NCBI GenBank assembly: GCA_019639095.1
Contig: JAHBSN010000008.1
Span: 1-32,706, forward strand
Origin: Actinomycetota bacterium
GTDB taxonomy: Bacteria; Actinomycetota; Acidimicrobiia; Acidimicrobiales; Iamiaceae
Direction: 5' to 3'
DNA length: 32,706 nucleotides
The notes beneath the pieces were generated by a model. The model was not told where the DNA came from. It made no database searches and saw only the letters and a list, made by a program, of their open reading frames with translations. This document shows positions 7,502-20,878 of the stretch, piece by piece; the first letter of the stretch is position 1, and the number at the start of each line of letters is the position of its first letter. Made by a program: the position numbers and the translations under genes.

Positions 7502-7618
7502 TTCTTGTGCCCGTAGTGGTCACCGGCGGCGAACACGGGCACAAGAAGCGAACCAGCGGGCCGGCCCACCCGTTCTTGTGCCCACAGTCGCCCCCAGCGG
7601 CGAACACGGGCACAAGAA
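7502..7618. repeat. Two 71-bp-spaced copies of a palindromic repeat
   Basis: Copy 1 has arms TTCTTGTGCCCG (7502-7513) and CGGGCACAAGAA (7536-7547). Copy 2 has TTCTTGTGCCC (7573-7583) and GGGCACAAGAA (7608-7618). Left and right arms are each offset by exactly 71 bp, so the element is both a tandem direct repeat and a pair of inverted repeats. The right half (CGGCGAACACGGGCACAAGA) is identical in the two copies, whereas the loop differs (GTAGTGGTCACCGG against ACAGTCGCCCCCAG). The pair lies between divergent genes (starts 7411 and 7701), so it is not placed as a terminator. It could be a REP/BIME-like interspersed repeat or a protein-binding site. Confidence 0.8.
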
Positions 7619-7684
7619 GCGAGACCGGCCCGGCCGCACCCCCCGGAGCGAGGCCGGGCGGGCGGGCGGCATGGACCACCGTCC

Positions 7685-7690
7685 GTATGC
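7685..7690 (+). promoter_or_regulatory. -10 box of the beta-helix lipoprotein gene
   Basis: TATGCT lies 9 nt upstream of the ATG at 7701, predicting a transcript that begins within a few nucleotides of the start codon. There is no convincing -35 hexamer. An ATG at 7671 in the same frame would precede this box and is less likely to be the start. Confidence 0.5.
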
Positions 7691-7700
7691 TGGGCGGGCC

Positions 7701-9155
7701 ATGGACGACGACTCGGGCGGCGAGCACCAGCGGTCGCCGGACCCGTCGGTCACCCGGCGACGCTTCCTGGCGGGGGCGGCGGGCGCCGCCGCGGCGGCAC
7801 CCGTCATCCTCGTGGCCTGCTCGTCCGATGCCGAACCGCAAGCGAAGCCCGCCGCGAGCACCACCACCGATCCGGCCGCCAGAACCGGCGCCACCAGCAC
7901 CACCGCCCCGAGGCCGGCCGGCACCAGGCCCGACCCCACCACCCTGCCGAGCGTGGTGGGCGACGGGGTGGCCGACGACCACGCCGCGCTGCAGGCCATC
8001 TTCGACCAGCTCCGGCCCGACGAGGGGGTGGCCGGCGCCCGCATCGTGCTGCCGCCCGGCGTCTTCCTCCTGGGGGACACCCTCGAGCTCCAGCGGTTCT
8101 CGGGCAGCATCGAGGGCCAGGGCGTGGGCCACCCGCCGACCAAGGGCGGCCAGGGCACCGTGCTTCGGTGGGCCGGCCCGCCGGGCCGGCCGATGATCCG
8201 GGTCCGCGACTCCAAGGGCGTGCTGGTCGGTCGCATCCGGTTCGAGGGCCACGACGAGCGCCCGCCGTCGGCCGGCATCGAGTTCCAGGGCGCGGCGCAG
8301 GACCAGCAGGGCACGAACGCCCAGCTCGTGGTGTCGGACTGCCACCTGGGTCCGTGGACCTGGGCCGAGGCCGGCACCGACCAGGGCCGCCTCGACGCCG
8401 CCATCGCGTTCACCGGCGACAACGGCAACAACGACCAGTTCTCGATCCTGCGCTGCACCTTCGCCGGCGGCGGCCGCGAGGGCACCACGGGCGTGCGCAT
8501 CGACAACACCCAGTCGGTCTGGGGCCAGCTCACCGACTGCCTGTTCGACGACCTGGCCGAGGGCCTGCGCACGTCGGCCTCCACGGTGCTCGACAACCCG
8601 CAGTTCAACCGGTGCGGCACCGACCTGGTGGTGGGCTCCACCGCGCAGGTGCAGGTGCGAGACGGCAACTCCGAGCAGTCCGGCCGCATCGCCACGGTGG
8701 CGCCCGAGGCCGGCCTGCGCTGGAACGGCGGCTACCTCCAGGCCCACGCCGAGCACATGGGGCCGGTCCTGATCGACGCCTTCCCGTCCGAGAGCGCCAG
8801 CGTGGTGCTGCGCGACGTGCGCATCACCTACCCCACCGGCCGGGGCCGCCCCTGGCGCGAGGGCACCCGGCCCACGATCCGCTTCGGTCCCGACCGGGCG
8901 GCCAAGGTGTCCGCCGGCGGTCCCGGCTTCGTGGTGCGCGCCACCGACTGCACCGGCCTGTACGCCGACCAGTTCGAGCTGGCCGGCGAGCTCTGGGCCG
9001 TCGTGCCGGCGTCTCGGGGTTCGGTGGAGGTCACGAGTCGCCACCGCGAGGGGGTGGTGGCGTTCCGCAACGAGCTGTGGAACGACCAGGTGGGCTTCGG
9101 CCGGACCCGCCTGGACACCGCCGCGTGGGACCCGCCCCGGCCCGGCACCTGGTAG
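7701..9155 (+). CDS. Tat-exported lipoprotein with pectate-lyase-like right-handed beta-helix
   Basis: The product has 484 residues from the ATG at 7701. The N-terminus has a twin-arginine signal (TRRRFLAGAAGAAAAAPVI) ending in a lipobox (LVACSS), so a folded, lipid-anchored protein outside the membrane is predicted. A Ser/Thr/Pro-rich linker follows (about 40-85). The mature domain opens with GDGVADDHAALQAI, the hallmark start of the Pectate_lyase_3 family, and continues with beta-helix-like rungs (GSIEGQGVG, ILRCTFAGG, LTDCLFDDL, NPQFNRCG). The fold is predicted with good confidence; the substrate is not, since these folds serve lyases, hydrolases, epimerases and phage tailspikes. The gene ends exactly against coaE: the two stops form TAGCTA at 9153-9158. 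Confidence 0.82.
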   Translation: MDDDSGGEHQRSPDPSVTRRRFLAGAAGAAAAAPVILVACSSDAEPQAKPAASTTTDPAARTGATSTTAPRPAGTRPDPTTLPSVVGDGVADDHAALQAIFDQLRPDEGVAGARIVLPPGVFLLGDTLELQRFSGSIEGQGVGHPPTKGGQGTVLRWAGPPGRPMIRVRDSKGVLVGRIRFEGHDERPPSAGIEFQGAAQDQQGTNAQLVVSDCHLGPWTWAEAGTDQGRLDAAIAFTGDNGNNDQFSILRCTFAGGGREGTTGVRIDNTQSVWGQLTDCLFDDLAEGLRTSASTVLDNPQFNRCGTDLVVGSTAQVQVRDGNSEQSGRIATVAPEAGLRWNGGYLQAHAEHMGPVLIDAFPSESASVVLRDVRITYPTGRGRPWREGTRPTIRFGPDRAAKVSAGGPGFVVRATDCTGLYADQFELAGELWAVVPASRGSVEVTSRHREGVVAFRNELWNDQVGFGRTRLDTAAWDPPRPGTW

Positions 9156-9816: not shown

Positions 9817-11523
9817 ATGGCGACGGCCACCTCCGCCCCGCCCGATGGGCCCTCCGGCTTCCCGCCCCCCGGCGGCGAGGTCGACCTGACCCCGCCCAGC
9901 CGGGACCAGGTGGCCGCGTTCCGCCCCGCCATCCTCGGCATCCGCGGCGGCACCACCGCCATCTCGGTGGCGCTGGCCAGCCCGTTCTTCGCCAACCAGG
10001 AATGGGACGTGGTGGCGTGGTGCGCGGTCGTGGTGGCGTACAACGTCTTCCGGATCGTGCGCCCCGTGCGCTTCGTCGACGACCTCAACAGCATCGTCCG
10101 CGTCCTGCTCGAGGTCGGCTTCCACGTGGTGGCGGTGGTGGCCACCGGCTACTGGGAGTCGCCGTTCGTGTTCGCCCTCATCACCGCGGTGATGGTGGCC
10201 GGATTCGCCCGCGGCTTCGGGTTCGCCCTCCGCGTGAGCATCACCTCGGCCATGGCGGTGTCGATCCCGTTCCTCATCCGCCCCTCGGCCGACCTGTCCG
10301 ACCTGCGAACGGCCACGCAGTGGACGGTGGAGCTGATCCTGGTGGCCCTGATCGCCGGATACGCCCGGCGGGTCACCGGCGAGGCCGACCGCCAGCACAG
10401 CCTGGCGCTGGACCGCCTCGGCCGCCTGGCCGACGCCAACCTGCTCCTCTACTCGCTGCACCGCGTGGCCCAGACGCTGCCGGCGAGCCTCGACCTGGAG
10501 GAGGCGCTCGACACCACGATCAGCCGGCTCAAGGACCTCTTCGACTACGACGCCGCCGCCGTGCTGATGCTCGACGAGACCGACCAGACCTGGGTGGTGG
10601 CCCGCTGGGACGGCGTTCGCCCCGCCCCCACCTACGGCCTCGACGAGCTGCCGGCGCCCGTGCGCGAGGCGGTGGAGGTCCGCCACCCCGTCAACGTGAC
10701 CGAGCTGCTGATCGACGGGCCGGGGCTGTGGGCGGAGATGAGCTCGGGCCTCTACGCCGCCCTCCCCGCCCGGGACTCCACCGTGGGGCTCGTGGCCCTG
10801 GAGCACCGCCATCGGGACCACTTCCGCCTGCGCGACCAGGAGCTGCTCGACGGGTTCGTGGAGCCGGCCGCGCTCGCCATCGACAACGCCCGCTGGTTCG
10901 CCCGGCTGCGCACCGTGGGCGCCGACGAGGAGCGCACCCGCATCGCCCGGGACCTCCACGACCGCATCGGCCAGTCGCTCGCCTACCTGGCCTTCGAGCT
11001 CGACCGCATCGTGAAGGCCGACGCCAAGGGCTCCTCGGTCACCAAGCAGCTCGGCCAGCTCCGCAACGACGTGCGCGGCGTGGTGGGCGAGGTGCGCGAC
11101 ACCCTCTACGACCTGCGCACCGACGTGACCGACAGCCAGGACGTGGGGGCCATCCTCCAGGGCTTCCTCGACCGGGTGCGCACCCGCAGCGACCTCGAGG
11201 TGAAGCTGGTCGCGACGAGCACCGGCCGGCTCCCGCTGCTGCAGGAGCGCGAGCTCTGGCGGATCGCGCAGGAGGCGATCACCAACGTGGAGCGCCACGC
11301 CCAGGCGCACAAGGTCACCGTCACCTGGCGCTGCGACGGCCGCCACGCCCTGCTGCTGGTGGTCGACGACGGCGTCGGCTTCCCCGAGGGCCGCGCCGGC
11401 CGCCTCGACAGCTACGGCATCCTCGGCATGCGAGAGCGGGCGGCCAGCATCGGCGCGAGCCTCGACGTGACCGGCGTGAGCGGCGTCGGCACCACCGTCC
11501 GCTGCGAGATCACCACACTCTGA
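9817..11523 (+). CDS. NarL-type membrane sensor histidine kinase with GAF domain
   Basis: The product has 568 residues. The N-terminal part (about 40-190) has several hydrophobic segments (e.g. VVAWCAVVVAYNVF, VELILVALIAGYA), indicating a polytopic membrane sensor. A GAF-like domain follows (about 225-355), then a HisKA_3 dimerisation domain with phospho-acceptor His381 in RIARDLHDRIGQSL. The C-terminal HATPase_c domain has the N box (EAITNVERHA, N490), G1 (VVDDGVGFPEG) and G2 (GILGMRERAASIGASL). It is expected to autophosphorylate and pass phosphate to the response regulator immediately downstream. The ligand cannot be told from sequence. The ATG at 9817 is preceded by TAACCT at 6 nt rather than a ribosome-binding site. 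Confidence 0.92.
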   Translation: MATATSAPPDGPSGFPPPGGEVDLTPPSRDQVAAFRPAILGIRGGTTAISVALASPFFANQEWDVVAWCAVVVAYNVFRIVRPVRFVDDLNSIVRVLLEVGFHVVAVVATGYWESPFVFALITAVMVAGFARGFGFALRVSITSAMAVSIPFLIRPSADLSDLRTATQWTVELILVALIAGYARRVTGEADRQHSLALDRLGRLADANLLLYSLHRVAQTLPASLDLEEALDTTISRLKDLFDYDAAAVLMLDETDQTWVVARWDGVRPAPTYGLDELPAPVREAVEVRHPVNVTELLIDGPGLWAEMSSGLYAALPARDSTVGLVALEHRHRDHFRLRDQELLDGFVEPAALAIDNARWFARLRTVGADEERTRIARDLHDRIGQSLAYLAFELDRIVKADAKGSSVTKQLGQLRNDVRGVVGEVRDTLYDLRTDVTDSQDVGAILQGFLDRVRTRSDLEVKLVATSTGRLPLLQERELWRIAQEAITNVERHAQAHKVTVTWRCDGRHALLLVVDDGVGFPEGRAGRLDSYGILGMRERAASIGASLDVTGVSGVGTTVRCEITTL

Positions 11524-11541
11524 GGTCGTTTGCCGGTCGAA

Positions 11542-11564
11542 CCGCCCGCAGATCCTCCGGGCGG
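11542..11564 (+). other. Hairpin between kinase and regulator genes
   Basis: CCGCCCG (11542-11548) pairs with CGGGCGG (11558-11564) around a 9-nt loop, 19 nt after the kinase stop. It could attenuate or process the kinase-regulator transcript. The 113-bp gap otherwise holds only the Shine-Dalgarno sequence of the next gene. Confidence 0.35.
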
Positions 11565-11636
11565 CGGGCGGGCTGTGCCAGGATGACCAGCGATCCGGTG
11601 GGAAAACCGGTCGAATCGTCCACGAGGAGCTGCGCC

Positions 11637-12281
11637 GTGACCATCCGACTGCTGCTCGCCGACGACCACCGCATGCTGCGGGAGAGCCTCCGTCGGACCC
11701 TCACCGAGGAGGGGTTCGACGTGGTGGACGAGGCGTCCGACGGCGACGAGGCGGTGCGCCTGGCGACCGACCTGCGGCCCGACGTGGTGCTCATGGACGT
11801 GACCATGCCCGACGTGGGCGGCATCGAGGCCACGCGCCGCCTCCAGGCCAGCAACCCCGAGATCCGCGTGGTCATGCTCACGATGCACGCCGACGAGTCG
11901 GTGGTGTCCGATGCGCTCAGGGCCGGGGCCGTGGGCTACCTCGTGAAGGACTGCTCCACCGACGAGATCGCCGGGGCCATCCGCGTGGCCGCCGGCGACG
12001 AGGCGCTCTCGCCCGAGCTGGCCGGCGCCATGCTCGACGAGGTGCGCCGGATCGACCCGGAGCCCGCCGAGGAGTCCGACCAGGTGGTGACCAAGCGGGA
12101 GGTGGAGGTCCTCCAGCTCATCGCCGACGGCTGCTCCACCCCCGAGGTGGCCGAACAGCTCTTCATCAGCCAGAAGACGGTCAAGAACCACCTGGCGTCG
12201 ATCTACCACAAGCTCGACGCCCGGGATCGCACCCAGGCCGTGCTCCAGGCGGTGCGCATGGGCATCGTCCGCCTCCGCTAG
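11637..12281 (+). CDS. NarL/FixJ-family response regulator
   Basis: The GTG at 11637 is chosen because GAGGAG lies 7 nt upstream; an in-frame ATG at 11583 has no such signal. The product has 214 residues. The receiver domain has the acidic pair (LLADDH), phospho-acceptor Asp54 (VLMDVTMP), the switch Thr (MLTMHA) and conserved Lys (LVKDC). A LuxR-type helix-turn-helix fills the C-terminus (TKREVEVLQLIADG...TVKNHLASIYHKL). It is a transcription factor activated by the kinase encoded just upstream. Its targets are unknown; the neighbouring Tad pilus locus is a candidate by position only. Confidence 0.95.
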   Translation: MTIRLLLADDHRMLRESLRRTLTEEGFDVVDEASDGDEAVRLATDLRPDVVLMDVTMPDVGGIEATRRLQASNPEIRVVMLTMHADESVVSDALRAGAVGYLVKDCSTDEIAGAIRVAAGDEALSPELAGAMLDEVRRIDPEPAEESDQVVTKREVEVLQLIADGCSTPEVAEQLFISQKTVKNHLASIYHKLDARDRTQAVLQAVRMGIVRLR

Positions 12282-12389: not shown

Positions 12390-12596
12390 TCAGTTGCAGG
12401 TCCCGCCGTCGCCGTAGGCGACCTTGATCGAGCAGGCCGACTTGCCGAAGCCGCCGCCCGTGGACGTGCCGAAGAACGCGACCGCGCTGAAGACGATGGT
12501 GGCGATCAGCGCCAGCAGCAGGGCGTACTCCACGAGGCCGGCACCTCGCTCGTCCTTGCGGATCCGCCGTGGTGTGTGCCTGTGGTGGTGGTGCAA
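12390..12596 (-). CDS. flp: Flp/Fap-type pilin
   Basis: This is the major subunit of a Tad pilus. The 68-residue prepilin has a short basic, His-rich leader (about 1-17), the processing site ERGAGLVEYALLLALIA (cleavage expected after the Gly of ERG, with the +5 Glu present), one hydrophobic assembly helix and a short Gly-rich tail with two Cys (SACS and GTCN), which may form a disulphide. The start is TTG at 12596, supported by AGGAGGG 7 nt upstream. A small hairpin (GAACC/GGTTC, 12616-12631) precedes the ribosome-binding site. In many tad loci flp is the first gene; here it comes last, after the membrane protein. Confidence 0.93.
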   Translation of the reverse strand: MHHHHRHTPRRIRKDERGAGLVEYALLLALIATIVFSAVAFFGTSTGGGFGKSACSIKVAYGDGGTCN

Positions 12597-12670
12597 CGCT
12601 CAGCCCTCCTGGCCAGAACCCCTACTGGTTCATCGGCGCTCGGGGCGTGCGGCTACATGGGCCGTCGGCC

Positions 12671-14242
12671 TCATTCCGATCCCGCGGGTAGCGCAACCAC
12701 CCACTTCTCGTCCTCGAACACCACCCGCCATCGGTCCGAGCGGCTCACGTAGCGGCCGAGGTCGCTGTCCCGGGTCCACAGCACGGCGGTGGCCCCCACG
12801 TCGGAGAGGATCCGGTCGTACTCCCGGGTGTCTCCCCCGCGCTTCTTGTTCAGCGCCGTGTACTGCTGGATGACCTCGATGGGGTACATGTCGACCCGGT
12901 CGTCGAAGTAGGTGCGCACCTCGTCGGGCCCGTACCGGTACTCGAGCCAGTTGCCCACGTAGTCGTGGGTGACCACCCGGTCGTCGAGTCCGAGCTCGCC
13001 GTGCTGGCGCATCCAGCGGGCGGCGTCCTCGGGGTAGGGCGCCATGGCGGTGTTCGGCCCGGCCAGGCCGAACACGGCGGCCAGCACCACCAGCAGGGCC
13101 GTGGCCTGGAACACCGGGCGGATGAGCCGGGGGCGTCGGGTGCCGTCGAGGGTGCCGAGACCGGCCAGCCCGGCGGCGAGCAGCGGGGTGAACACGATCG
13201 AGGCCTGGAGGATGTTGCGCGTGCTGGTGACGGCGGCGAGGCCGAAGACCACCGTGGGCAGGATCGCCCGCCACCGGCGGTGCCGCACGACGATGGCCAC
13301 CACCAGCAGGATCAGCTGGGCGGCGAAGAACAGCTCCACGCCCCGGTGCCAGCTCGGCGGCTCCCACTCGGCCACGCCCTCGAAGGCCTCTCGCTTGGAC
13401 AGCAGCTGGAGGGGGAACACGAGCAGCTTGGGGCCGAGCGGGCCGATGGCGCCGAGGGCGGTGCCGAGCGTGGCCCACGCGAGGGCCCGGAGCTCCACCA
13501 TCGGTGGCGTCCGGTCGTCGATCCAACGGCCCGCCGCCAGCAGCCCGAGCACGCCCGGCCCGAACGGGAAGCTGCCGTGGATGTTCACCCACAGCCACAT
13601 GGTGGGCACGAGCCAGCGGGGGTCGAGTCCGTCCTCGGCGGCGAGCATCACGAGCGCCAGGCCGAGCGCCCCGAAGAGGAGGGGGCGCTCCACCCACAGG
13701 CCGGTGCCCATGCACACGATGATCCCGGCCACCAGCACCCGCGGCACGAGGGTGCGGGCGGGCCTGGTGAGGCGCCACAGCACCAGCACCAGGGCCACCG
13801 CCGCCACGGCGTTCACGATGCGGATGCCCACCAAGCCCACGGTGCGCTCGGCCCCGGCGTAGATCACGCTGGCGCCCCAGCTCTGGACGGTCCACTCGTG
13901 GCCGTGGGCGGTGAAGGAGTACGGGTCGGCGCTCGGGATCGAGCCGGTGTCGAAGATGATCCGGCCGGTGGCCAGGTGCGTGAGGAAGGAGTTGTCCTGG
14001 AGCGGCGCCAGGCCGATGCGGACGCCCACGAGCACCAGGATCAGCACCAGCACGCCCTCGATGGACGGGCGTCGGAGGCGGTCGCGCCACCCCAGGGCCT
14101 CTTCGGGGGCGGATGGCGGGGGCTCGTCGGCCTCGGCTCGGGCCTCGTGGTCGACGGTGGCCGCGGCGGCCGGGACCTGATCGGCCGTGACGGCCTTGGC
14201 GGGTGCGTCGTCCACGGTGATCAGGTCGGACATTACCGTCAC
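12671..14242 (-). CDS. Polytopic membrane protein, GT-C glycosyltransferase-like
   Basis: The product has 523 residues. A charged, Ala/Pro-rich cytoplasmic N-terminus (about 1-58) is followed by roughly 10-12 predicted membrane helices and a soluble C-terminal domain (about 405-523). The first loop (HLATGRIIFDTG...PSADPYSFTAHGHEW) resembles the first extracytoplasmic loop of bacterial GT-C/PMT-like membrane proteins, which transfer sugars from polyprenyl carriers. I cannot name a specific family or verify catalytic acids. The GTG start overlaps the tadC stop (GTGA), implying translational coupling; an ATG at 14233 is an alternative. Its place between tadC and flp suggests a role in pilus function, perhaps pilin glycosylation, but this is inference from position. 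Confidence 0.68.
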   Translation of the reverse strand: MTVMSDLITVDDAPAKAVTADQVPAAAATVDHEARAEADEPPPSAPEEALGWRDRLRRPSIEGVLVLILVLVGVRIGLAPLQDNSFLTHLATGRIIFDTGSIPSADPYSFTAHGHEWTVQSWGASVIYAGAERTVGLVGIRIVNAVAAVALVLVLWRLTRPARTLVPRVLVAGIIVCMGTGLWVERPLLFGALGLALVMLAAEDGLDPRWLVPTMWLWVNIHGSFPFGPGVLGLLAAGRWIDDRTPPMVELRALAWATLGTALGAIGPLGPKLLVFPLQLLSKREAFEGVAEWEPPSWHRGVELFFAAQLILLVVAIVVRHRRWRAILPTVVFGLAAVTSTRNILQASIVFTPLLAAGLAGLGTLDGTRRPRLIRPVFQATALLVVLAAVFGLAGPNTAMAPYPEDAARWMRQHGELGLDDRVVTHDYVGNWLEYRYGPDEVRTYFDDRVDMYPIEVIQQYTALNKKRGGDTREYDRILSDVGATAVLWTRDSDLGRYVSRSDRWRVVFEDEKWVVALPAGSE

Positions 14243-15150
14243 ATCACCGTCGAGATGTTGATGATGGCCGGCCCGATCACCACCACGAACAGGGCGGGGA
14301 ACACGCAGAACACCATCGGGATCATCATCTTCACCGGCGCCTTCTGGGCCCGCTCCTGGGCCATCTGACGGCGCTTGATGCGCATCTCGTCGGCCTGGGC
14401 CCGCAGCACCCGGCCGATCGACACGCCGAAGGTGTCGGCCTGGAGGATGGCGAGCACGAAGGACCGCAGCTCGGGCACGTCGCAGCGGCGTTCCATCGCG
14501 CGCATGGCGTCGGCCCGGCTCGAACCGGCCCGGACCTCGCCGAGCATGCGGCCGAACTCCTGGGTGAGCGGGCCGGGCACCGAGCCGACCACCCGGTCCA
14601 GCGCCTGCTCGAAGCCGAGGCCGGCCTCCACGCTGATGACCAGGAGGTCCATGACGTCGGCGAGCTTCGTGCGGATCTCGTGCTGACGCTCCTCCACGCG
14701 GCGGTTGAGGATGGCGTCGGGACCGAAGATCAGCACCGCCACGAGCAGGCCGGCCACGATCAGCGCCGACATGCCCTTCATGTGCAGGATGCCGAACACC
14801 AGGATCACCATGACCGGCGCCAGCGCGACGCCCACCACCTTGATGGCCACGAACCGGTCCACGGCGTCGGGCGAGTTGTTGCCGCTCGCCACGAGCTTGT
14901 CGCGGATCTTCTCGACGTAGCCGTCGGGCGTGTACCGGTTGCCGATCGAGGTCAGCTTGTTGAGGACGGGGGCGATCGTGCGATCGCGCATCGGAGCGAG
15001 CAGCTCCTGGTCGCGCACGTTGTCGACCTCGTAGCCCTCGAGCTGGCGCAGCGACGCCCGGACGGTGGCCTTCTCGTCCGCGCTCGAGGCGACGGTGTAG
15101 ATGCCCACGCCGATGGCGGTGGCGATCAGTGCGAGTGCGAGCAGCAGCAT
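14239..15150 (-). CDS. tadC: Tad pilus platform protein TadC (type II secretion F domain)
   Basis: TadC is an inner-membrane platform protein that pairs with TadB and couples the TadA ATPase to pilin assembly. The 303 residues include an N-terminal membrane helix (1-20), two helices around 105-145, the T2SSF domain (about 170-270; GLGFEQALDRVV...GEVRAGSSRADAMRAM) and two C-terminal helices (MIPMVFCVFPALFVVVIGPAI). It lies 10 bp downstream of the VWA-tadB gene and overlaps the next gene by 4 bp, so it is within one operon. Confidence 0.93.
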   Translation of the reverse strand: MLLLALALIATAIGVGIYTVASSADEKATVRASLRQLEGYEVDNVRDQELLAPMRDRTIAPVLNKLTSIGNRYTPDGYVEKIRDKLVASGNNSPDAVDRFVAIKVVGVALAPVMVILVFGILHMKGMSALIVAGLLVAVLIFGPDAILNRRVEERQHEIRTKLADVMDLLVISVEAGLGFEQALDRVVGSVPGPLTQEFGRMLGEVRAGSSRADAMRAMERRCDVPELRSFVLAILQADTFGVSIGRVLRAQADEMRIKRRQMAQERAQKAPVKMMIPMVFCVFPALFVVVIGPAIINISTVM

Positions 15151-15160
15151 CAGGTCGTCC

Positions 15161-17098
15161 TCAGATCTCGATGTTGATGATCTTCTTCATCCACAGGAAG
15201 CCGATCGAGGCGGTCACGCCCGCCACGCCGAGCAGCACCTGTCCCATGGTCGTGCCGCTCAGCGGCGCCATGTACTCCGGGTTCGACATCCACATGAACA
15301 GGCCGAGGCCGATCGGCAGCAGGCCGAGGATGATCGCCGAGATCTTGCCCTCGGCGGTGAGCGCCGAGACGTCCCGGCGGAGGCGGTCGCGCTGCACCAT
15401 GGTGTCGGCCACGGTGAGCAGCAGCTCCGACAGGTTGCCGCCCACCTCCCGCTGGATCCGGACCGCCATGACGGCCCAGCCGAAGTCCGGGCTGTCCATG
15501 CGCTCGGCCACGGCGTCCATCGAGTCCTCGATCTCCCGGCCCAGGCGTGCCTCGGTGACCACCCGGCGCAGCTCCTTGCCCATGGGCTCCTCGACCTCCT
15601 GGGACACGGCCTCCACGCCCTGCATGAGCGAGTAGCCGGCCCGGAGCGAGCCCGACAGCAGGTTCAGGGTGTCGGGCAGCTGGGCCACGAACTTCTTGCC
15701 CCGGCGACCGGCGATGAAGTTCACCGCCGCCACCGGGACCATGCCGGCCACGACGGTGAGCAGGATGCCGGGAACCAGGCCCAGACCGAACACGGCGCCC
15801 ACGAACACCACCACCACGGCGGCGACGTAGAAGAACAGCGCCTCGGCCGCCCGCAGGGGCAGGTCGGCCCGCTCGAGCATGAGCTCCACCTTCACCAGGA
15901 AGCCCTGGCGCTCGGCGAAGTCCTCGGTGATCTCGACCGCCCGCTGGAGCAGCGCGGTCTGGGCCAGGGCGCCGTCGTCGTCCTCGTCGGAGCTACCGCC
16001 CTCGTCGTAGACCCGCAGCATCACGTTCAGGCCGCTCTCGTCCTTCGAGGCCAGGGCGGCGAAGGCGTAGGCACCGAGGCCCACGGCCACGCCCACCAGC
16101 ACGAAGGCCAGCACGGCGCCGAGCGTGGAGCGCATCCACTGCGGCCCGAACGCCTTGTCGGCGCTGACCGCCTTGGTGGTGGCGGCCCCCTCGGCCTTGG
16201 TGCCCACCACGTAGGAGGCGTCCCGGGTCACCCCGCCGACGCCCACGCTCACGTTGACCGAGCCCTGGTCCTTGGTGGACGCGTAGGACGCCACGAACTG
16301 GCTGCGCATGGTGGTGGACAGCGACGTGAAGGCGTCGGCCACCTCCTTCTCGCTCTCGCCGTGGAACATGGCGCCACCGGTGCGATCGATGATCGACTGG
16401 ATGGCGTTCACGTCGGTCTGGCCCACGTGGGTGAGGTCGACGGCGAAGAGGGCGGCACCGGAGCTCACCATCGAGGCCCGGGTGGCGGCCAGGTCGGCCT
16501 CGGAGACGTCGTCGGCGCCGTCGGTCACCAGCACGAGGTTGTGCTGGAGCTTCGGGCGGCTGTCGAACAGCGAGGTGCCGAGCCGGATGCCGTCGTAGAG
16601 GGCGGTGCGACCGTCGCGGGGCGCGGCCATCGCGTCGAGCGCCTCGGTCAGCTGGTCGACGTCGTCGGTGAAGGGCGACTCCACCGTGGCCTCGTTGGTG
16701 AAGCTCACGATGGCCATCTGGTCGCCCTCGGGGAGCTCCGCGGCCATCTTGGCGATGCCGGCCTTGGCCCGGGTGAGGGCACCGTCGTCGGCCATCGAGC
16801 CCGAGGTGTCGACCACGAACACGGTGGCGAGGCGGGTCTCGGTCTTGCGCAGGTCGGTCAGGGAGTCGACCTTCTTGGCCACGCCGTCCTCACGGATGGT
16901 CAGGTTCTTCAGCGCGTCGGGCGCACCGGTCCACAGGAACGTGACCTTCACGGCCTTCTGGTCGGTGCCGTCGATGCCGCGCACGGCGAGCTCGCCGCCC
17001 TGGCTCTGGCCCGACGCCGCCGGCGCCAGGACGAGGGCGGCCAGGGCCGCCACCACCACGGCGAGGAGCAGGTGGAGCGCCTTGAGCCGGATCACCAC
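15161..17098 (-). CDS. tadB: VWA domain fused to Tad platform protein TadB
   Basis: The product has 645 residues, about twice a usual TadB. It has a signal-type N-terminus (1-30), a von Willebrand A domain (about 90-275) with an intact MIDAS (D97-T-S-G-S101, then VTDGADD), a linker, a membrane helix (about 325-350), and a complete TadB-like T2SSF module with its helices (about 400-645; LSGSLRAGYSLMQGVEAV, VGGNLSELLLTVADTM). The VWA part should face outward and bind a divalent-metal-dependent partner, while the F domain works in the membrane with TadA and TadC. The reading frame is continuous across both parts, with no internal stop or shift. The GTG start overlaps the tadA stop by 7 bp; a second GTG at 17095 would overlap by 4. 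The fusion is likely genuine because both halves are well conserved. Confidence 0.92.
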   Translation of the reverse strand: MVIRLKALHLLLAVVVAALAALVLAPAASGQSQGGELAVRGIDGTDQKAVKVTFLWTGAPDALKNLTIREDGVAKKVDSLTDLRKTETRLATVFVVDTSGSMADDGALTRAKAGIAKMAAELPEGDQMAIVSFTNEATVESPFTDDVDQLTEALDAMAAPRDGRTALYDGIRLGTSLFDSRPKLQHNLVLVTDGADDVSEADLAATRASMVSSGAALFAVDLTHVGQTDVNAIQSIIDRTGGAMFHGESEKEVADAFTSLSTTMRSQFVASYASTKDQGSVNVSVGVGGVTRDASYVVGTKAEGAATTKAVSADKAFGPQWMRSTLGAVLAFVLVGVAVGLGAYAFAALASKDESGLNVMLRVYDEGGSSDEDDDGALAQTALLQRAVEITEDFAERQGFLVKVELMLERADLPLRAAEALFFYVAAVVVVFVGAVFGLGLVPGILLTVVAGMVPVAAVNFIAGRRGKKFVAQLPDTLNLLSGSLRAGYSLMQGVEAVSQEVEEPMGKELRRVVTEARLGREIEDSMDAVAERMDSPDFGWAVMAVRIQREVGGNLSELLLTVADTMVQRDRLRRDVSALTAEGKISAIILGLLPIGLGLFMWMSNPEYMAPLSGTTMGQVLLGVAGVTASIGFLWMKKIINIEI

Positions 17099-18456
17099 GC
17101 ACCCGCCGCACGCTTGGCGAACGCCTCGGGCTGGAACACCTCCGGTCCGAGGCGGATCCCCTGGTCGGCGAGCTTCTCGGCGAACTTGGGCCGGACGCCG
17201 GTGGCCTTCAGGTGGCCGCGGTAGCGACCGTGCTCGTCCACGCCCATGCCGAAGTCGAACAGGAACACGTCCTGGGTGGTGATCACGTCACCCTCCATGC
17301 CCTGGATCTCGGTGATGTGGGTGATGCGGCGGGAGCCGTCCCGGAGGCGGGTGAGCTGCACCACGCAGTCGATGGCCGACGCCATCTGCTCCCGGATGGC
17401 CCGCACCGGCAGGTCGAAGCCGGCCATGAGGACCAGCGTCTCCAGACGGGCGAGGGTGTCCCGGGGGCTGTTGGCGTGGACGGTGGTGAGCGACCCGTCG
17501 TGGCCGGTGTTCATGGCCTGGAGCATGTCGAGGGCCTCGCCGGCACGACACTCGCCCACCACGATGCGGTCGGGCCGCATGCGGAGGCAGTTCTTGACGA
17601 GGTCGCGGATCGTGATCTGGCCCTTGCCCTCGATGTTCGGCGGCCGGGCCTCCATCGAGAGCACGTGCTCCTGGTGGAGCTGGAGCTCCTTCGCGTCCTC
17701 CACCGTGACGATGCGCTCGTCGCCGGGGATGAACGACGACATGACGTTGAGGGCCGTCGTCTTACCGGTGCCGGTACCGCCGGAGATGATGATGTTGAGC
17801 CGACCCACCACCATGGCCTGCAGGAAGCGGGCCGACGCGGCGTTCAGGGTGCCGAACCGGATCAGGTCGTCGATCTGGTACGGGTCCTTGGAGAACTTCC
17901 GGATGGTGAGGAAGGGCCCGCCGATGGCGAGGGGGTGGATCACCGCGTTCACGCGGGAGCCGTCGGGGAGGCGGGCGTCGCAGAGGGGCTGGGCCTCGTC
18001 GATGCGACGGCCCACCTGGCCCACGATCTTGTCGATGATCCGACGCAGGTGCGTCTCGTCGACGAAGGTGGCGTTGGCCTTCTCGACCTTGCCCTTGCGC
18101 TCGACGAACACCATGTCGGGGCCGTTGCACATGACCTCGGTGATGTCGTCGTCCTTGAGGAGCCGGTCGATGGGCCCGTAGCCCAGGATGTCGTCGGAGA
18201 CGTCCTGGATCAGCTGCGCCTTGTCGGCGGCCGACAGCGGGGCCCGCTCGACGGCGAGGGCCGACTGCAGCTGGTCCTGCACCCGACGCCGCAGGTCGTC
18301 CTCGGACAACCGCTTGTCGTAGAGGATCGGACCGAGCTCGTCGATCAGGTGGTGGTGGATCTTCTGGCGGAGCTCATCGAGCACCGGGTCCCGACGCTTG
18401 GTCACGGGTCCGGAGCCGTTGCCCTGCTGTTCGTGGAGGCGCTTGTAGAGGGACAC
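17092..18456 (-). CDS. tadA: Tad/CpaF secretion ATPase TadA
   Basis: TadA is the hexameric ATPase that powers Flp pilus assembly. The 454 residues contain the CpaF N-terminal region (about 1-150; LGYGPIDRLLKDDDITEVMCNG), Walker A (GGTGTGKTT, Lys232), the Asp box (RIVTVEDAKELQL), Walker B-type VVGECRAGEALDML and the His box (GSLTTVHANSPRD). The start is GTG at 18456. A 139-bp gap with a hairpin separates it from tadZ upstream, while the downstream genes overlap or are only a few bases apart, so tadA may head its own sub-operon. Confidence 0.96.
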   Translation of the reverse strand: MSLYKRLHEQQGNGSGPVTKRRDPVLDELRQKIHHHLIDELGPILYDKRLSEDDLRRRVQDQLQSALAVERAPLSAADKAQLIQDVSDDILGYGPIDRLLKDDDITEVMCNGPDMVFVERKGKVEKANATFVDETHLRRIIDKIVGQVGRRIDEAQPLCDARLPDGSRVNAVIHPLAIGGPFLTIRKFSKDPYQIDDLIRFGTLNAASARFLQAMVVGRLNIIISGGTGTGKTTALNVMSSFIPGDERIVTVEDAKELQLHQEHVLSMEARPPNIEGKGQITIRDLVKNCLRMRPDRIVVGECRAGEALDMLQAMNTGHDGSLTTVHANSPRDTLARLETLVLMAGFDLPVRAIREQMASAIDCVVQLTRLRDGSRRITHITEIQGMEGDVITTQDVFLFDFGMGVDEHGRYRGHLKATGVRPKFAEKLADQGIRLGPEVFQPEAFAKRAAGAW

Positions 18457-18595: not shown

Positions 18596-19849
18596 TCAGC
18601 GCCAGCCCTTCTTCTTGCCGGCGGTGGCCGGCGCGAAGCGGTCGGCCAGCTGCTCGAGGCTCTTGGCGATGGCCGAGCGGGGCGCGTCGAGCACCACGGG
18701 CGTGCCCTTGTTCACCGATTGCGGCACCACGATGTCGCTCGGGATCAGGGCGTCGGCCTTCACCTGGAGGGTGCGCTCCACCTCGCTCACCTCGAGCTTC
18801 ACCTTGGAGTTCGCCCGGTTGAGGATCAGGTGGATCTTCTGCATCGGCGTGTTGAGCAGCCGCAGGGTCTGCAGGCCGATCTTCACGTTCTTGATGTTCG
18901 GGATGTCCATGCCCGCCACGAGCAGCACGTCGTCGCTGTCCTCGATGAGGCCGAGCACGACCTCGTTGAAGTAGGCGGGCGTGTCCACCACCACGTACGA
19001 GCAGAACGACCGCAGCAGCCCGATGATGTGGTGCATCTGGTCGGCGCCGATCTGGTCGGCGAACGCGGGCTCGAGCGGGGCGGGCAGGACCTTGAGACCC
19101 GACGGCTGGTGCGTGGCGAGCAGGCTCTCGAGGAAGCCGACGTCGAGGCGCTCGAACGAGCTCACGGCATCGACGATGGTGTGCTGGGGGGCGAGCTTGA
19201 GCATCACCGCGATGTCGCCGAACTGCAGATCGGCGTCCACCAGGGCCACCGGCTTGTCGGAGCGCTGAGACAGGATGACGCCCAGATTGGTGGCCAGCAC
19301 CGACTTGCCGGCGCCCCCCTTGGTGGAGAAGACGGTGATGACCCGGCCGCCCTCGGCGGGCTCGTCCTCGCCCATGGGCATGCCCATGGAACGGGCCCCG
19401 GAGAGCGCGGAGTACAGGGTCTGGTCGACCCGGCGGACGGCCTCGTTGAGCTGGCCGGTGTCCACCGGGGCACCGAGGACGTCCCGGACGCCGATGCGGA
19501 TGGCCCGCTGGAAGAGGTCGGTGGAGAGGTCGTCGGCGATCAGGATCGCCCCCACGTCAGGCCGGTGCGCCAGCAGCGCCTCGGCCCCGCTCATCCCCGG
19601 CGAGCGCGAGCAGCTCGGGCCGAGCACCACCAGCAGCGGGGAGTCGAGGTAGCGCTCCTCGACGCCGTTGAGGTCGGCCAGCGGGATGGCTCGCTCGCCG
19701 AGCTGCATGGCCAACCGGCTCCGCACCGAGGGATCGGCCTCGACCACCACCAGCGGCGCGTTCGGTTCGGCTGCGGTGAAGTTCGACATCGATCCTGTCG
19801 GGTTCGGTGGGGGGGCCGACCATTCGTCAGCCCGAAGATACTCGCTCAT
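18596..19849 (-). CDS. tadZ: TadZ/CpaE-like pilus localisation ATPase
   Basis: The 417 residues comprise a degenerate receiver-like N-terminal domain (about 30-140; LVVVEADPSVRSRLAMQL) and a ParA/MinD-type ATPase domain with a deviant Walker A (FSTKGGAGKSVLATNLG), VDADLQFGDIAVML and the switch region VVVDTPAY. TadZ/CpaE proteins position the Tad machine at specific sites, often a cell pole. Two starts are possible: ATG at 19849, or ATG at 19789, which has AGGA close upstream. The second removes 20 residues with no conserved features and may be the true one. It lies 57 bp downstream of cpaB. Confidence 0.92.
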   Translation of the reverse strand: MSEYLRADEWSAPPPNPTGSMSNFTAAEPNAPLVVVEADPSVRSRLAMQLGERAIPLADLNGVEERYLDSPLLVVLGPSCSRSPGMSGAEALLAHRPDVGAILIADDLSTDLFQRAIRIGVRDVLGAPVDTGQLNEAVRRVDQTLYSALSGARSMGMPMGEDEPAEGGRVITVFSTKGGAGKSVLATNLGVILSQRSDKPVALVDADLQFGDIAVMLKLAPQHTIVDAVSSFERLDVGFLESLLATHQPSGLKVLPAPLEPAFADQIGADQMHHIIGLLRSFCSYVVVDTPAYFNEVVLGLIEDSDDVLLVAGMDIPNIKNVKIGLQTLRLLNTPMQKIHLILNRANSKVKLEVSEVERTLQVKADALIPSDIVVPQSVNKGTPVVLDAPRSAIAKSLEQLADRFAPATAGKKKGWR

Positions 19850-19906: not shown

Positions 19907-20761
19907 TCACTCCGAGCTGTCGGGCCCGTCCTTGCCGTAGGGGGTGAGCTGACCGGCGTCCTCGGCGGGGAGGAGGTCGCTGAGCTCGATGGGCGCCTGC
20001 GGGACCGGCTTGTAGTCCCGGGCCACCAGGACCAGGTAGATCGAGGTCGGGTCGACCGAAGCCACGTACTGGGCGGCCTTGGCCGGCACGATCAGGGTGA
20101 TCAGGCCCGCGTTCTCGGTGGGGGCGGTCGTCTCGGTGTCGGTGCCGGCGGGAGCGGCCGCACCCGCCTGGGGCAGGGCGTCCTGGCCGACGGCGAGCAC
20201 CTGCGCCTTCTGGTACAGGTACCGGGCCTTGAAGTCGACCTGCTGGGCCGCCGCCGGGTTGGCGTTGGTGTCGTCGCCCGTCGACGCCTGGTTGGCGAGC
20301 AGGATGTTGACGAAGTCACCGGGGCGGACCAAGCCGGCCACGCCGCGCACCTGGTCGACGCTCAGGCTGATGGCCACCTGGTCCTCGTTGCGGATCTTGG
20401 TGAGCCGCTCGGAGAACGACGCCCGTGCTGCCGGGTCGGAGGCGTCGACGAACATGTCGGACACCACCACCTGGTTCGGCACCAGGTCGTTCACCGCCAC
20501 CTTGCCCGAGATGTCCTCGATGCTGGCGATGGCGTTCCCGGGCTTGAACTTCCGCGGGATGTTCTCCTTGGCGATGTACGCCTGGGCCTCGATGCCCGAG
20601 GTGCCCCGGGCCACGTTCTGCTTGACCAGGTACACGGGCACCTGTTCGGCGTTGTCGAAGGCCTCGTCCTGGACGCCGTTCACGTAGTTCCACACGAGGA
20701 ACGACGCGAGGGCGCCGATGGCGATGGCGGCGACGAGGATGAGTGTCCGGCGTTGGCTCAC
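19907..20761 (-). CDS. cpaB: Flp pilus assembly protein CpaB (RcpC)
   Basis: The GTG at 20761 is preferred: AAGGGG lies just upstream and the protein then starts directly before its membrane helix (TLILVAAIAIGALASFLVW). A longer frame reaches a GTG at 20845, but its extra residues look non-conserved. The product has 284 residues: a membrane anchor (about 5-25), a SAF domain (about 40-115; VPVYLVKQNVARGT...IPRKF...GKVAVNDLVPNQVV) and an RcpC-type domain (RLTKIRNEDQVAISLSVDQVRGVAGLVRPGDFVNILL). CpaB is an extracytoplasmic component of Tad pili. With no RcpA secretin here, it probably acts between membrane and cell wall. It is the first gene of the locus. Confidence 0.9.
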   Translation of the reverse strand: MSQRRTLILVAAIAIGALASFLVWNYVNGVQDEAFDNAEQVPVYLVKQNVARGTSGIEAQAYIAKENIPRKFKPGNAIASIEDISGKVAVNDLVPNQVVVSDMFVDASDPAARASFSERLTKIRNEDQVAISLSVDQVRGVAGLVRPGDFVNILLANQASTGDDTNANPAAAQQVDFKARYLYQKAQVLAVGQDALPQAGAAAPAGTDTETTAPTENAGLITLIVPAKAAQYVASVDPTSIYLVLVARDYKPVPQAPIELSDLLPAEDAGQLTPYGKDGPDSSE

Positions 20762-20764
20762 CGA

Positions 20765-20819
20765 GGAACCCCTTGCTTCTGCGATCGGCTCCCGGTGGAG
20801 CCGTCTGGCGACGGGTTCC
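20765..20819 (-). promoter_or_regulatory. Structured leader over the cpaB ribosome-binding site
   Basis: On the minus strand GGAACCC (20819-20813) can pair with GGGTTCC (20771-20765), the latter overlapping the likely Shine-Dalgarno of cpaB. Between them lies an independent 7-bp hairpin (CGGCTCC/GGAGCCG, 20786-20803). Folding would hide the ribosome-binding site. I do not recognise a known riboswitch consensus; in such GC-rich DNA the pairing could be chance. Confidence 0.35.
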
Positions 20820-20878
20820 CCTTCGGCCGTCGGGGCGGCGCGCACAAGGGTTTCGGCGCGATTTCTGGCCGGGCGCGA

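Follow-up and report, generated by a model that had tools for sequence, protein, structure and literature searches.

The window, a stretch of 32,706 nucleotides, makes up the whole of contig G000:C454 in a draft genome of 4.0 Mb and carries on its minus strand a gene series with the full Tad (type IVc) set, RcpC, TadZ, CpaF/TadA, TadB, TadC and Flp. The series begins with rcpC/cpaB (19907..20845; RcpC, E 6.3e-15) and tadZ/cpaE (18596..19849; CbiA, 9.3e-13), whose position is conserved, and continues with the cpaF/tadA ATPase gene (17092..18456; T2SSE, 5e-62) and tadB (15161..17098), in which an N-terminal von Willebrand A (VWA) domain (VWA_2, 2e-18) precedes the T2SSF part (3.5e-19). Full-length relatives of TadB align across both of these parts in many loci. 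Then follow tadC (14239..15150; T2SSF, PF00482, E 3.5e-21), the gene of a multi-pass membrane protein of 523 aa with a predicted GT-C fold (12671..14242, GTG start), and flp (12390..12596), a pilin gene of 68 aa with a TTG start whose match to PF04964 (E 2.3e-6) lies under Pfam's cut-off. On the plus strand, convergent to the Tad genes, a histidine kinase gene (GAF/HisKA_3, 9817..11523) and a LuxR-type response regulator gene (11523..12281) were found. This pair is kept next to the Tad locus throughout the class, which suggests that it controls the locus. Elsewhere in the window, a recombinase-looking frame near the contig end (660-1607, minus strand) has no Pfam match and an odd C-terminal half and is possibly frameshifted, and a 525-aa protein with a Tat-like signal (7578-9155, plus strand) has no Pfam match at 1e-5.

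The original prediction had placed the start of the 523-residue protein over the tadC stop and the whole gene ahead of flp, and this arrangement was confirmed: the tadC TGA (14241-14239) and the GTG (14242-14240) share 4 nt as GTGA, and 74 nt lie between the stop of the gene and flp. Translational coupling, which had been proposed from the overlap, is plausible here, but it is not certain, since the second candidate start, an in-frame ATG 9 nt downstream (14233), would remove the overlap. Furthermore, coupling is not a conserved feature, whereas the tadC/flp neighbourhood is. Across the class the median distance between the matched parts of tadC and the enzyme gene is about 100 bp; close spacing is general and the exact overlap is not.

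Searches of Pfam, NCBIfam and PDB by sequence gave no match of note for the 523-aa protein and no family name for its 69-row family. None of the 69 members matched a Pfam model at E<=0.01, those of the oligosaccharyltransferases STT3, AglB and PglB included (0/69), and the sole relevant NCBIfam hint was WsfD, a glycan biosynthesis transferase, at E 0.004 in two of the 69. An AlphaFold2 model was built from the 69-sequence alignment (mean pLDDT 92.1, pTM 0.88), and the fold comparison bore out the GT-C resemblance that had been noticed in the first loop. Foldseek against solved structures returned 13 matches at E<=0.001, every one a GT-C enzyme, with AglB at the top. With VIA-align, rows 1-47 (Z 19.6 to 6.0) were all proteins of GT-C fold or parts of such proteins, and unrelated rows began lower, at Z 4.6. 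The best match was the catalytic subunit of human oligosaccharyltransferase (Z 19.6 over 417 residues, 4.4 Å), followed by AglB (18.7), DPY19 and Pmt4 (about 17), PglB (15) and ArnT (14). ArnT, DPY19 and Pmt4 share the fold (Z 14-17), but they act on other acceptors and show no sequence match. STT3, AglB and PglB are the best fold matches across nearly the whole chain (Z 13-20), STT3 and AglB aligning over roughly 390-427 residues of the model, and their likeness includes the C-terminal outer domain (residues 399-520; 12683..13048, minus strand), which resembles that of AglB (3vu0_A, Z 8.4, 111 residues, 2.8 Å). The model thus has the multi-helix membrane domain and the outer loop after helix 1 of the GT-C superfamily, together with the combination of membrane domain and C-terminal outer domain that marks the oligosaccharyltransferase fold. 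However, no sequence similarity to STT3, AglB or PglB was found, and the C-terminal domain of the window protein is shorter. WWDYG, the oligosaccharyltransferase motif, does not occur in its sequence as such, the closest stretch being HDYVGN (426-431). The 523-aa protein is predicted to have a GT-C/oligosaccharyltransferase-like fold and to belong to an unnamed GT-C family with the architecture of a small oligosaccharyltransferase and no Pfam model.

In the 69-sequence alignment 11 columns are invariant, among them R186, N220, H222, E292, W293 and R342, while W122 is also invariant or nearly so, and D83, H89, D106, D447 and R449 are kept in 90% or more of the sequences. D447 and R449 lie in the C-terminal outer domain. 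D83, H89 and D106, with P107 and W117, are nearly invariant in the first outer loop (residues 78-121; 13880..14011, minus strand), which in GT-C enzymes is the place of the catalytic Asp (excerpt of PMC11127046), and D83 stands directly after the first membrane helix (61-77), a conserved acidic position typical of the superfamily. Positively charged loops were seen at 158-164, 320-323 and 359-373; the pattern of helices and loops and the positive-inside rule would place the conserved residues on the outer side of the membrane. Of the alignments used, A1 was made without L006, L025, L026, L029 and L035, and A2 without L065, L068, L070, L077, L078, L086, L098, L110, L112, L115, L116 and L119. 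The conserved residues bear on whether the protein is an enzyme at all. It could keep the GT-C fold without catalysis and serve as a membrane accessory of the pilin or as an assembly factor, in the manner of TfpY, a pilin-linked protein described in an excerpt of PMC11841053 as having no glycosyltransferase activity. We consider this quite improbable, since the polar residues that a GT-C active site should contain show little or no variation, among them the Asp that follows the first helix and would not survive relaxed selection, and since Tad loci without the gene persist (see below). As for the pilus-anchoring role that had been offered as a second option, nothing specific was found in its favour.

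An active glycosyltransferase of the Tad locus agrees with the distribution of the gene among relatives. The gene is present in one copy in the window's genome. Within the genus, 10 of 11 further genomes have a homologue, as do 38 of the 61 genomes searched among relatives, the window's own included; of the named relatives, Aquihabitans sp. G128 is closest at this locus, with 67% identity. All 19 relatives whose loci were fetched have tadC directly upstream and 16 of them have an flp match downstream. The homologues and the kept neighbourhood show that the reading frame is real, and the expectation that related genomes would have the same gene in the tadC-flp interval was strongly borne out. 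In the window's class the family occurs in 76 of 247 genomes, tadC lying directly upstream on the same strand in 67 of these carriers and flp within 1.5 kb of the enzyme gene in at least 53, mostly in convergent orientation. A tadC relative was found in 74/76 carriers vs 25/171 non-carriers, and flp in 72/76 vs 24/171; related genomes are non-independent, so the tiny p-values of these counts should not be taken literally. Among the 61 loci of the window type on named genome contigs, 50 have tadC directly upstream and 57 some Tad gene, and in six of the 11 without adjoining tadC the contig extends less than 700 bases upstream. The enzyme gene is missing from Tad loci of the window's subtype in the genomes G243, G086 and G102, indicating that the enzyme is dispensable and not essential for Tad assembly. 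Its loss from the otherwise intact Tad loci L153, L154 and L155 fits a role in decoration rather than in assembly. No relative of the enzyme was found on the plasmids and viral contigs searched. Two further observations concern individual loci. In L077, L082, L089, L092 and L105 either the kinase/regulator pair is flanked by two Tad loci that face each other or the enzyme is accompanied by the flp array together with tadC of a second type. L083, titled Acidobacteria bacterium B69T1B8, has the same operon, falls in an Acidimicrobiia-type clade and is probably mislabelled.

Within the class such an arrangement could have been inherited once, and an envelope-glycan enzyme that entered the Tad operon of an ancestor by chance, with no functional tie to the pilus, might then look the same. 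This is very improbable in our view, because the gene co-occurs with tadC and flp at the level of genomes and because the linkage recurs outside the class and even outside the phylum, with the genes ordered differently. Among 20 loci assigned to other classes of the phylum (including L150, which is from the window's class), none has tadC upstream, 14 have Tad genes and 10 have flp within 1.5 kb, divergent in nine. With flp near and tadC not upstream, the pilin is the neighbour that the classes share. L118 belongs, by its record title, to the Acidobacteriota; in that phylum a relative of the enzyme occurs in 49 of 149 genomes, flp in 21 and both in 14; in nine of these 14 the two stand on one contig at most 20 kb apart, the distances having been taken from part of the enzyme and flp places (carriers with flp and some others). 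Tad genes were present in 14 of the 20 loci fetched from this phylum, which were picked mainly by score, and in 12 of 18 when G571 and G695, added for their flp, are left aside. This linkage beyond the class, in changed gene order, and the co-occurrence indicate a recurrent Tad accessory rather than a local oddity. It had been suggested that such a role is not standard in Tad loci; however, our results revealed that the gene is the rule for one Tad subtype in the class and recurs in other classes and in Acidobacteriota. A single gain of the Tad linkage was also considered and rejected: on the tree the Tad label requires 21 changes, at least 13 of them forced by starred branches, although weak forks and short contigs inflate the count.

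In this sample the wider family mostly lacks a link to Tad genes, and among the other distant relatives any Tad gene was found in only 2 of 19 loci. This leaves room for a GT-C enzyme that belongs to the Tad locus and is active on a surface molecule other than the pilin (a glycan of the cell wall or S-layer, or the VWA domain of TadB on the outside), and that readies the envelope for the pilus. Many acceptors are known for GT-C enzymes, TadB does carry the VWA domain, and the weak WsfD hint points the same way. Nevertheless we regard it as unlikely, since in other classes the nearest Tad neighbour of the enzyme is flp and not tadB or tadC, and since pilin tails co-vary with the presence of the gene in raw counts.

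These counts, which exclude long TadE-like pilins and tails of fewer than 8 residues, gave a mean of 3.8 tail serines in pilins near the enzyme (n=119) vs 1.1 in those from loci without it (n=23). Ser stands at the first of two tail positions in 70 of 113 distinct pilins vs at most one of the 23 without the enzyme, and at the second in 73 of 113 vs three of 23; the pilin of L158 (G131) was scored here as one without the enzyme, in a fragmented genome where neither tadC nor the enzyme was found. The two positions are four residues apart, which would align them on the same helix face. Within one family, the Gly-Ser of the carriers corresponds to Gly-Thr in two relatives that lack the gene. However, the link between pilin serines and the enzyme is confounded by ancestry: on the tadC tree the association comprises only three independent contrasts and is not significant. 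Furthermore, the pilin of L153, a locus without the enzyme, has four serines. N-X-S/T sequons were present in 21 of 87 pilins of carriers and in 3 of 23 without the enzyme (one carrier and seven non-carrier pilins were dropped from this count); they are no clear mark of carrier pilins, and N-glycosylation is therefore not favoured. The linked pilin of the window itself is divergent and has a Cys-containing tail, while a second, more typical pilin lies away from the enzyme on another contig of the same genome (G000:C124), with no Tad gene in the 12 kb around it. Typical flp genes with no Tad genes found in the stretch around them lie at L194 10917-12515 and L193 4021-4236, three in Aquihabitans sp. 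G128 and this one in the window's genome.

The gene neighbourhood and the modelled fold, together with the pilin tails, lead us to propose, with a probability of roughly 0.6, that the protein works outside the cytoplasm as a GT-C glycosyltransferase dedicated to the Tad (type IVc) pilus and glycosylates the Flp pilin, probably on serines close to the C-terminus. A sugar or short glycan carried by polyprenyl phosphate would be taken up by the membrane part of the enzyme at the outer face of the membrane and passed to the Flp pilin just after its insertion, and the C-terminal domain would help to bind the pilin. Attachment would probably be O-linked, to serines of the short exposed C-terminal tail, and would precede or accompany assembly by CpaF/TadB/TadC. 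In the gaps examined, in selected loci, open frames were read by eye and some were recognised (uvrB- and coaE-like starts), but no gene for making the donor was seen; such a gene would not be needed at the locus if the general polyprenyl-sugar pool of the cell serves.

Enzymes of comparable role have been described for other type IV pili. TfpW of Pseudomonas aeruginosa is a GT-C pilin arabinosyltransferase (Kus 2008, cited in an excerpt of PMC11841053), and it is likened to the window protein here by role and gene context, being a GT-C enzyme encoded with its pilin and having the same function that we propose. Encoding together with the pilin, as in such dedicated enzymes, was also found for the window family. 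However, TfpW acts on type IVa pilins, while the window system is Tad. According to the same excerpt, TfpW and TfpO are dedicated type IVa pilin glycosyltransferases that protect from pilus-specific phages, and by analogy the likely use of the modification at the Tad locus would be a glycan coat on the pilus that alters adhesion or shields it from phages. For Tad pili, called the least understood type IV pili in an excerpt of PMC13170226, glycosylation of Flp has been reported in one species: Flp1 of Aggregatibacter actinomycetemcomitans is described as glycosylated (excerpt of PMC6182317), and RcpC is implicated in it (excerpt of PMC12307814). It is a Tad pilin too, but the excerpts name no GT-C enzyme of the window kind for it. 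Likewise, in the parts of the open-licence full-text literature covered, no paper was found that connects Tad loci with a GT-C enzyme or names a transferase in them.

More tentatively, and at somewhat less than even odds, the unnamed family may serve the Tad pili of Actinomycetota and Acidobacteriota generally as a module for pilin glycosylation. It would have joined pilin genes on several occasions, with tails that evolve acceptor serines, and would be the Tad counterpart of TfpW/TfpO. If the enzyme does modify the pilin, then the gene for deletion, the predicted active-site residues and the predicted acceptor region would open the old report of Flp glycosylation to direct testing, and many genomes would gain a function for a protein that has no Pfam model.
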